A DNA stretch of 51,066 nt from Gemmatimonadota bacterium (GTDB taxonomy: Bacteria; Gemmatimonadota; Gemmatimonadetes; Longimicrobiales; Gaopeijiaceae): contig VXMI01000088.1 in NCBI GenBank assembly GCA_009841165.1, forward strand, positions 1 to 51,066, read 5' to 3'. Below, one piece after another: positions 15,747 to 20,483 of the stretch. The notes beneath the pieces are model-generated. The model worked only from the letters and a program-made list of their open reading frames with translations, ran no database searches and was not told the DNA's origin. How positions within the stretch are numbered: the first letter of the stretch is position 1; every line of letters begins with the position of its first letter. Both the position numbers and the translations under genes were made by a program.

Positions 15747-18269
<2,523 letters not shown>

Positions 18270-18833
18270 GTGTTATGACCTCTCACCGCCGGAAGGCGGC
18301 ATCTGCAGGCTGTCTTGATGACGTCGAGGGGATGCGGCGCCCGCCCCGTTCCCCCTCATCGCCCGATCCGGTTTCGGCGGCGCCAGCGCCCTCTTACACC
18401 GGAAACCCCGAAAGGTGCGCCCGCGCGACCGCAAAAACACCATCTACTGCATGAACCTTGCCAATCTCTACGAGGCTGCCCCGCCCTCGGTTACGGTTCA
18501 TAGTACTGCCGTTTTGTCAGAATGCCATCATTGGGCGGTCATTCTGGCAGATAGCGTTGCCCGATGGTGAGGCCGGGGGCGGGAATCGGCCATTTCGGCA
18601 GGCTTTGTCGATCCGGGGGATCGGCCATTTCGGCAGGGGTGCGGCCAAATCGGCGGGAGTCGGCCATTTCGGCAGGTCGTCACGCGGCGAGTCCTCCCGT
18701 ACCGATGCGCTCGGCTGGCCCCGGATCCTTCCGCATGCCTAACTTGAAGCGCGTTGGGCCGACGCCCATGCGCTCCGACCGCTTCCCCGGGTGCAGCACC
18801 CCCAGTCTCAGGACCTGCCAAGGACACTATGCG
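18270..18833. other. 564-base gene-free region containing lon upstream sequence and a repeat cluster
   Basis: No open frame here looks like a protein: the longest merely translates the repeats (GIGHFGR/GVGHFGR). Next to lon there is a short hairpin CCGCC-GGAA-GGCGG (18286-18299) in its probable leader. CAGAATG (18519-18525) and CATTCTG (18540-18546) form a small inverted repeat. From 18535 to 18676 lies a cluster of 17-base repeats, listed separately. The remainder (18300-18510 and 18677-18833) holds nothing I recognise. The promoters for lon (-) and the gamma-glutamyltransferase gene (+) should be in this region. Confidence 0.6.
18535..18676 (+). repeat. Cluster of 17-bp repeats, consensus TCGGCCATTTCGGCAGG
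   Basis: Three identical copies at 18586-18602, 18621-18637 and 18660-18676, one variant (GCGGCCAAATCGGCGGG) at 18641-18657, and one more diverged copy (GCGGTCATTCTGGCAGA) at 18535-18551. Start-to-start distances are 51, 35, 20 and 19 bases, so this is not a CRISPR array. The identical orientation and irregular spacing resemble a multi-site operator or the subterminal repeats of a mobile element, and the nearest downstream gene is the gamma-glutamyltransferase 157 bases away. Confidence 0.75.
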
Positions 18834-20483
18834 ATGCAGACCCGCAGCCTCCTCCTCGCCGCAGCCTTCACGGCCCTCGTGCCCATGACCATCCAATCCC
18901 AGCAGGACATGGGGCGCCGCTCGACGGTCTACGCCCCGCGCAACGTCGCCGCCACCAGCCAGCCGCTCGCCACCGCAGCCGCCCTCGAGGTCATGCAGCA
19001 GGGCGGCAACGCGATCGACGGGGCGGTGGCCGCCGCGGCCGTGCTCAACGTGACCGAACCGCACATGACCGGGATGGGCGGCGACGCCTTCTCGATCGTG
19101 TGGTGGGCCGAGACGGGCGAACTCCATGGCATCGACGCGAGCGGCAGGAGCGGCAGCGGCATGTCGGTCGACGCGCTCCGGGCGCGGGGACACGACCGGG
19201 TGCCGGGGTCGGGGCCGGAGGCGGTCACCGTGCCGGGAGCGGTCTCGGGGTGGCACGCGCTGGTCGAGCGGTTCGGCAAGCTCACCCTGGCCGAGGTCCT
19301 GCAGCCCGCGATCCGCATCGCGAGCGAGGGCTTTCCGGTGACCCCCGTCATTGCGCGACAGTGGGCGGGCGCGACCGAGAAGCTGGCCCGCGACGAGGGG
19401 GCCCGCGCGACCTACCTGGTCGACGGCGAGCGTGCGCCCAGAGCCGGTGAGTGGCACACGAATCCGGATATTGCCCGTTCGTTTCAGAGGATCGCCGACG
19501 AGGGGCCCGGCGTCCTCTACGGCGGCTCTCTGGGACAGGATCTTGTACACGGGCTTGCGGAATTGGGAGGTTTTCTGACGCTGGAGGATCTCGCCACGCA
19601 TCAGCCGAGGTGGGTCGAGCCGCTGAGCACGGACTTCCGCGGGTTCACCGTGTGGGAGCTTCCCCCGGCGGGGCAGGGGATCGCCGCGCTGGAGATGCTG
19701 GAGCTCCTCGAACCCATGGACCTGGCGGGAATGGGGCACAACTCCGCCGACTACCTGCACCACCTCATCGAGGTGAAGAAGCTGGCCTTTGCCGACCTGC
19801 ACCGGTACGTGTCGGATGCCGACCACATGGAGATCGACCCCATGTCGCTCCTGAACCCGTCGTACATCGACTCGCGGCGGGCGCTGATCGACCCACGTGT
19901 CGCGGCCGACCGGGTCAACCCGGGGCGCGCGGTCACCGACTCCGAGACCATCTACCTCTCCGTCGCGGACGCCGACGGGAACATGGTGTCGTTCATCAAC
20001 TCGGTGTTTTCGGGGTTCGGATCGGGGGTCGTGATTCCCGGGACCGGGTTCGCGCTGCAGAACCGCGGCGCCGGCTTCGTTTTCGACGACGGCCACCCCA
20101 ACCAGGTCGCGCCGCGCAAGCGCCCCTTCCACACGATCATCCCGGGCTTCGTGACAAGGGACGGCGAGCCGCTGATGGCCTTCGGGCTGATGGGCGGCTC
20201 AATGCAGCCGCAGGGGCACACCCAGTTGCTGCTCAACATGCTCGTCTTCGGGATGGACCCGCAGGAGGCGGTGGATGCGGCGCGGTTCCGGCACCTTTCG
20301 GGCAAGCGCGTCGCGATCGAGCGGATCAGCGACGAGGTGGCGGCGGAGCTGGAGGCGCGGGGGCATGAGCTGGCGGACTGGACGCGCACCGACTTCGGCG
20401 GCGCGCAGGTGATCCTGCGGCTGGAGAAGGGGTGGGCGGCGGCGTCGGAGCCCCGGAAGGACGGGCATGCCGCGGGGAACTGA
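18834..20483 (+). CDS. Gamma-glutamyltransferase family protein, exported (copy 1)
   Basis: A 549-residue Ntn-hydrolase of the gamma-glutamyltransferase family, which cleaves or transfers gamma-glutamyl groups such as those of glutathione. Signal peptide MQTRSLLLAAAFTALVP then an N-terminal block with MQQGGNAIDGAVAAAAVLNV and the substrate-pocket motif HMTGMGGDAF. The expected autocleavage nucleophile is Thr372 in SETIYLSVADADG, where typical enzymes read TTHFSVVD, so the nucleophile is kept but the following residues differ. AAGGA lies nine bases before the ATG; the open frame further upstream only translates repeats. The NUDIX gene begins inside its last 17 bases, suggesting coupling. Confidence 0.85.
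   Translation: MQTRSLLLAAAFTALVPMTIQSQQDMGRRSTVYAPRNVAATSQPLATAAALEVMQQGGNAIDGAVAAAAVLNVTEPHMTGMGGDAFSIVWWAETGELHGIDASGRSGSGMSVDALRARGHDRVPGSGPEAVTVPGAVSGWHALVERFGKLTLAEVLQPAIRIASEGFPVTPVIARQWAGATEKLARDEGARATYLVDGERAPRAGEWHTNPDIARSFQRIADEGPGVLYGGSLGQDLVHGLAELGGFLTLEDLATHQPRWVEPLSTDFRGFTVWELPPAGQGIAALEMLELLEPMDLAGMGHNSADYLHHLIEVKKLAFADLHRYVSDADHMEIDPMSLLNPSYIDSRRALIDPRVAADRVNPGRAVTDSETIYLSVADADGNMVSFINSVFSGFGSGVVIPGTGFALQNRGAGFVFDDGHPNQVAPRKRPFHTIIPGFVTRDGEPLMAFGLMGGSMQPQGHTQLLLNMLVFGMDPQEAVDAARFRHLSGKRVAIERISDEVAAELEARGHELADWTRTDFGGAQVILRLEKGWAAASEPRKDGHAAGN

Follow-up and report, generated by a model that had tools for sequence, protein, structure and literature searches.

What are the short repeats that stand in a gap between two divergent genes of a Gemmatimonadota draft genome (G000; 4.27 Mb, 239 contigs), and which of the two genes do they serve? 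The gap spans 564 bases (18270-18833) of the 51,066-nucleotide stretch of DNA analyzed here, hereafter the window. To its left, on the minus strand, lies lon, encoding ATP-dependent protease La (15747-18269; TIGR00763, E = 1.2e-266), which we propose as the target gene and whose closest named lon loci are in Gemmatimonadetes MAGs. To its right, on the plus strand, lies a gene for gamma-glutamyltransferase (GGT; 18834-20483; TIGR00066, E = 4.3e-110), a divergent neighbor that is probably not the target of the array.

The repeats are copies of a palindrome in the lon promoter region

The gap length of 564 bases presumes that GGT starts at 18834, a start adopted because a signal-peptide-like sequence, recognized by eye, comes next; the ORF listing also holds a longer GGT frame with an ATG at 18564, which would run through the repeats, and an antisense frame at 18528-20132. 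A simple scan of the gap returned no sigma-70-type promoter or terminator. The initial annotation had described the gap as free of other genes, and none is apparent in its 564 bases, but it did not mention that the promoter region of lon falls within the same gap. The divergent lon/GGT pair (15747-20483 in the window) is conserved, for no evident reason, in 41 of the 65 lon loci with enough flanking sequence.

The 17-mer TCGGCCATTTCGGCAGG is present in three exact plus-strand copies, at 18586, 18621 and 18660, and a search allowing up to three mismatches returned only these three matches in the window (shuffle mean 0.18; 0 of 100 shuffles reached three). Reading of the words adds two variant copies, GCGGCCAAATCGGCGGG at 18641 and GCGGTCATTCTGGCAGA at 18535, bearing out the earlier count of three exact copies and two variants. 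Genome-wide, at up to two mismatches, the 17-mer occurs in four places, the three in the window and one on contig C63 (the control gave one match on each strand). This fourth match, TCTGCCATTTTGGCAGG, stands before dnaK and contains the perfect palindrome CTGCCATTTTGGCAG. On the strength of that copy, the repeat unit is recognized as a 15-bp near-palindrome, CTGCCANNNTGGCAG, of which the 17-mer is a decayed form; the palindrome consensus dates from the earliest searches of the genome and precedes any reading of the lon loci.

Six diverged copies of the palindrome, annotated without a strand, lie in the window between 18506 and 18675, with scores of just 9 to 10.7 of 12. They comprise CTGCCGTTTTGTCAG at 18506-18520; CGGTCATTCTGGCAG, a sequence match at 18536-18550; CGGCCATTTCGGCAG at 18587-18601, 18622-18636 and 18661-18675, in each case within one of the exact 17-mers (at 18586, 18621 and 18660, respectively); and the weak CGGCCAAATCGGCGG at 18642-18656, which scores 9 of 12. 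The first of these, more diverged and previously overlooked, lies 42 bp from the sigma-54-type element described below, and the array as a whole lies 158-328 bases upstream of GGT. The repeats had been characterized as sharing one orientation and as irregularly spaced. The exact copies are indeed all on the plus strand, but since the unit is near-palindromic their shared orientation says little; start-to-start distances are 30, 51, 35, 20 and 19 bp, of which one step is off, but four of the five fall near whole helical turns. The repeats are real; it is their neighbor that had been misassigned.

A sigma-54-type promoter element accompanies the palindromes at lon

On the lon side of the array, 42-212 bp from the palindromes, stands a sigma-54-type -24/-12 element, TGGCAAGGTTCATGCA (GG-N10-GC; 18448-18463, minus strand), which scores 11 of 12 and points to lon. 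Lon upstream regions in general present the palindrome followed by TGGCAAGGNTCNTGCA, which fits a sigma-54 -24/-12 element. The textbook consensus used for scoring was widened after the lon promoters had been viewed, to admit A at position 6 and C at position 12, and the element counts therefore lean somewhat toward it. Among 80 Gemmatimonadota lon upstream regions (79 relatives and the window; related loci, not independent ones, with L089 left out for a match beginning at residue 35), the palindrome occurs in 62, the lon-directed element in 57 and the two together in 50. In L043, L046, L049 and L051, one of two element matches overlaps the palindrome's own TGGCAG. Shuffles of the same 80 sequences gave means of 2.89, 0.27 and 0.01 (maxima 8, 3 and 1), none of the 80 carries the element on the opposite strand at score 11, and a count of palindromes gave 97, against 1 in the reversed sequences. 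At an element threshold of 10, both motifs are present in 60 of 79 lon upstream regions, with a gap of 38-43 bp in 48 of those 60. Within 45 lon/GGT gaps, the element points toward lon in 36 and toward GGT in none.

In other families of the order, palindrome and element (score at least 11) were each found in 6 of 10 lon upstream regions (palindrome shuffle mean 0.36), and the 11 last-ranked lon loci (L094-L104; mostly Gemmatimonadetes, some Gemmatimonadaceae or Gemmatimonas) hold the palindrome in one case. A strict combined pattern of palindrome and element, without mismatch, matched in 10 of 298 genomes with one control match; because G000 itself gave no match, this pattern is no measure of the regulon. 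The candidate lon promoter combines a TGGC-type -24 with a TTGC- or TGC-type -12, arranged as GG-N10-GC, and with helix-phased upstream sites, and rpoN (PF04552) is present in 31 of 31 genomes, including G000.

Palindromes and promoter element share one face of the helix

The 97 spacings between neighboring sites fall at 18-24, 30-32, 40-44, 50-52 and 62-64 bp, with a resultant of 0.77 at a period of 10.5, and none of the 97 measures 25-29, 33-39 or 45-49 bp; the spacings in the window agree with this phasing except for one step. Gaps from the nearest palindrome to the element follow a similar rule, being mostly 8 (all four hsp20 genes), 17-19, 28-32, 38-43, 49-50 and 59-63 bp, that is, about 10.5 apart, with exceptions at 54 (three cases), 108 and 126. 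Their phasing gives a resultant of 0.66 over 79 gaps and of 0.60 over 21 distinct gene-and-gap values, in sets that partly overlap and that, like the site-to-site analysis, leave out L026, a near twin of L025. This double periodicity places the sites on one face of the helix, both mutually and toward the promoter, and the common face ties the palindromes and the sigma-54-type element together.

The same palindromes precede dnaK, clpB and hsp20 genes

Clusters of the palindrome occur in three places in G000, before lon, dnaK and clpB. Single matches with one mismatch are no commoner there than those of a reversed control (29 versus 38), and it is therefore clustering that marks these three genes; the single palindromes at C20:9521 and C128:3381, which appear inside coding sequence, were taken as chance. 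A tighter pattern, run on 23 genus genomes, matched 191 times forward and 181 times in reverse, compared with 18 and 20 matches of its reversed control (hand-summed). Reading of 30 stretches, from 5 of the 10 genomes among the matches listed, identified lon, dnaK, clpB and hsp20 as clear targets, and profiles confirm dnaK, clpB and four hsp20 genes. To eight arrays (L210, L211, L214, L222, L228, L231, L234 and L236) no target could be assigned.

For dnaK in other genera of the family, 30 genomes were searched and 28 loci obtained, G113 and G135 being left out because the gene is cut. The palindrome precedes 23 of 27 correctly placed genes (L270 is misplaced; shuffle mean 0.99 of 28), and an element scoring 11 precedes 13 of 26, with 0 on the opposite strand; lowering the threshold to 10 brings opposite-strand matches in 4 of 28 as well. 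The dnaK element of G000 reads CGGCACGCTATTTGCT. An equivalent search for clpB in 30 genomes gave 26 full-length loci, of which 23 are correctly placed (L280, L288 and L293 are not), and the palindrome precedes 21 of these 23 (shuffle mean 0.96 of 26); once placed, L280 and L288 both have palindromes. None of the 26 clpB upstream regions holds an element scoring at least 10, and by this scoring clpB lacks a canonical sigma-54 element.

The clpB palindromes lie near the start codon, mostly between it and a TGGCCCGGAWCTTGA-like element. This conserved element is found upstream of the palindromes in 17 of the 23 placed clpB upstream regions (L274-L297), with a variant in G000 (L021:6390-6410), and looks like a sigma-54 site lacking its -12 GC. 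This arrangement suggests either an unusual promoter activated from downstream or a different role for the palindromes at clpB. Upstream of the hsp20 genes (L207, L218, L226 and L232), the nearest palindrome lies exactly 8 bp from a sigma-54-type element in four of four cases, a gap that would be close enough for polymerase contact and is closer than that of a usual enhancer.

Some arrays stand in other surroundings. Those at L228 and L234 are near genes that by eye resemble formylglycine-generating-enzyme (SUMF1) type proteins, and at L224:4024-4250 seven palindromes are packed within 230 bp next to a CitMHS-type transporter, from which a sigma-54-type element points away. Among the matches listed, contigs C7, C198, C293 and C328 of genome G008 end in or near palindrome arrays, and such arrays may therefore break assemblies.

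With the same palindromes before lon, dnaK, hsp20 and clpB, the best reading of these sites is that they define a proteostasis regulon.

A candidate activator is encoded among proteostasis genes

G000 encodes four bacterial enhancer-binding proteins (EBPs); the search gave two more, weak matches, clpB itself among them. The most likely activator, and the predicted binder of the palindromes, is a 547-aa protein encoded on contig C63 (G000:C63:4392-6035) that carries an AAA+ sigma-54 activator domain (PF00158, E = 8.9e-71) and a Fis HTH (PF02954, E = 5.3e-15). Its loop reads GAFTGA in 23 of 30 loci, G000 included, and GSFTGA in the other seven, and its recognition segment, GERTLYRK, is identical in 22 of 23 aligned proteins, the remaining one being cut. 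Residues 1-120 gave no Pfam match at E up to 1, and thus no Pfam receiver. By eye the N-terminus is receiver-like, with an acceptor position that is not Asp in the 23 aligned proteins; the L176 protein has an Asp two residues past that position. This receiver-like domain seems unable to take phosphate, which raises the question of what the EBP senses.

The gene lies in a cluster (G000:C63:1-17100; L151, L022) in which hslV-hslU-argF-gcvT-EBP faces ysxC-lon2-clpX-clpP-tig, followed by htrA and dnaK (argF and ysxC named by eye). In G000 it is flanked by gcvT and by a 225-aa gene convergent with it, and no kinase gene stands beside it there. A search of 40 genomes recovered orthologs in 38, G000 included, the G024 copy being cut and holding a stop. 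Genome G013 keeps the palindromic sites with no EBP ortholog detected, G009 has the EBP but hardly any consensus sites, and G015 is the only genome lacking both. In 13 of the 17 genus genomes with both listed, the ortholog lies within 12 kb of the second lon-like match; in the other four the two are on different contigs. Among the four EBP neighborhoods read, proteostasis genes are found only at the C63 EBP. The EBPs on C178 and C15 have a normal receiver domain, as ordinary response regulators do, and the one on C15 is preceded by a gene that by eye is kinase-like.

A probable enhancer for sigma-54-dependent expression of lon

We consider it likely that the array is the enhancer of a sigma-54-dependent lon promoter, that its sites are of a kind shared with dnaK, hsp20 and clpB, and that the C63 EBP is the likeliest protein to act through them. 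Dimers of this AAA+/Fis-type protein would occupy the 15-bp palindromes along a single face of the helix and assemble into an ATPase ring, which would remodel sigma-54 polymerase held at 18448-18463 and so allow lon to be transcribed; the same palindromes would serve dnaK, hsp20 and, otherwise arranged, clpB. Given the genes that share the sites, the regulon would be a protein-quality-control set, probably induced by heat or misfolded protein. From sequence comparison we infer the binding of the EBP to the palindromes, the need for sigma-54 and the nature of the inducing signal. A bolder and more tentative extension, which we would hold as possible though not as the expected outcome, is that much of the phylum Gemmatimonadota controls its heat-shock response via sigma-54: a single dedicated EBP, with a pseudo-receiver not open to the usual phosphorylation, might sense misfolding directly, for example by being released from DnaK or another client-bound chaperone, and activate lon, dnaK, hsp20 and clpB together, while HrcA keeps groESL.

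The initial annotation had placed the repeats upstream of GGT and likened them to cooperative operator sites or to the subterminal repeats of a vanished transposon. Control of GGT by the array appears very unlikely. The array does lie 158-328 bases upstream of that gene, and GGT is the divergent neighbor at 41 of 65 lon loci; sigma-54-type elements, however, point toward GGT in 0 of 45 gaps, a direction that disfavors it as the target, and 14 of 24 loci without GGT keep the palindrome before lon. The operator comparison holds in kind, since the sites turn up repeatedly ahead of functionally related genes and are in phase with the helix, but GGT, the target it implies, is probably not the right one (an element faces GGT in 0 of 45 gaps and lon in 36 of 45), and the sites are best read as activator sites. 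As to a vanished transposon, or mere chance, three identical 17-mers do resemble a recent duplication, but in many genera the motif is associated with lon, dnaK, hsp20 and clpB, far above shuffles; with all assignable copies preceding these genes and no transposase gene apparent within the 564-base gap, we give this origin practically no credence.

Two further explanations accept the regulon and assign its control to other proteins. The palindromes could be the sigma-54 enhancer of another EBP (on C178, C15 or C79) in a classical two-component system like Myxococcus HsfBA, as the presence of four EBPs in the genome, the normal receivers of the C178 and C15 proteins and the kinase-like gene before the latter would allow. 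We regard this as unlikely, given that proteostasis neighbors distinguish the C63 EBP alone among the four neighborhoods and that C63-type orthologs keep within 12 kb of the second lon-like match in 13 of 17 genus genomes with both listed. Less probable still is that the palindromes are operators of a heat-sensitive repressor of lon, dnaK, hsp20 and clpB, with another EBP activating the sigma-54 promoter. An AT-rich-core palindrome resembles any dimer site, the clpB sites lie near the start codon, downstream of a promoter-like element, and the nearest hsp20 site abuts the -24/-12 element, all of which would suit a repressor. At lon and dnaK, however, the sites are on the upstream side of the element (with a gap of 38-43 bp in 48 of 60 lon cases), a position that is activator-like and would be unusual for a repressor, and HrcA, a repressor already known, was found in 31 of 31 genomes, the sole CIRCE found in G000 standing at groES.

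Comparison with known systems

In bacteria, heat-shock regulation is commonly attributed to sigma-32, HrcA, HspR or CtsR. If the proposed mechanism holds, an enhancer-based sigma-54 circuit governing lon, dnaK and small heat-shock genes across many Gemmatimonadota genera would constitute a distinct solution, and the motif and the candidate gene make such a proteostasis circuit directly testable. The palindromes share with the HrcA/CIRCE system the placement of an inverted repeat before chaperone genes, and differ from it in sequence. At up to three mismatches, CIRCE (TTAGCACTC-N9-GAGTGCTAA) has one site in G000, a perfect one at groES, and none at lon; HrcA coexists with the regulon in 31 of 31 genomes.

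With sigma-54 systems of the NtrC-Fis enhancer type, the proposed circuit has in common the GG-N10-GC element, the upstream palindromes and an AAA+ protein with GAFTGA and a Fis HTH. The usual target sets of sigma-54 are nitrogen, flagellar or envelope genes, whereas the targets here are core chaperones and proteases, and the nearest hsp20 site is only 8 bp away. FleQ, an NtrC-family activator with a receiver-like N-terminus that is not known to be phosphorylated, controls flagellar and biofilm genes. It is among the best PDB matches of the candidate EBP, in sequence matches that cover the AAA+ domain only; FleQ-like EBPs offer a parallel for an unphosphorylated receiver-like N-terminus and differ in that FleQ serves flagellar and biofilm genes.

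In the literature searched, the core palindrome matched only in a human-gene context, and neither the motif nor a sigma-54 proteostasis regulon in Gemmatimonadota was found described; a publication on Gemmatimonadota, sigma-54 and heat shock, in the portions accessible, contains no description of such a regulon. Sigma-54 has been linked to chaperone genes elsewhere, as we propose here: in Bacteroidota and Planctomycetota, computed sigma-54 regulons are enriched in groEL, ibpA, groES, grpE, dnaJ and dnaK, and grpE and groES of Bacteroides thetaiotaomicron are called sigma-54-dependent, after earlier work (PMC12316311, accessible part). The main text of that study has no mention of Gemmatimonadota or clpB, and its accessible part presents no enhancer motif or activator (PMC12316311).

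The closest precedent among the sources available, in part as excerpts, is the HsfBA-lonD system of Myxococcus, whose regulator HsfA acts through sigma-54. In Myxococcus xanthus, an NtrC-like protein directly regulates the heat-shock lon gene lonD (HsfB-HsfA), a finding credited to Ueki and Inouye 2002, and HsfA is phosphorylated by the kinase HsfB (PMC9109919, accessible part). NtrC-like control of a heat-shock lon gene is therefore already known, while for the motif and the Gemmatimonadota regulon the accessible literature gave no description. The likeness to HsfBA-lonD lies in NtrC-like control of lon. Unlike HsfA, the candidate EBP has no Pfam receiver, no Asp at the usual position and, in G000, no kinase gene beside it; and in contrast to HsfBA-lonD, the presumed sites here precede not only lon but also dnaK, hsp20 and clpB.
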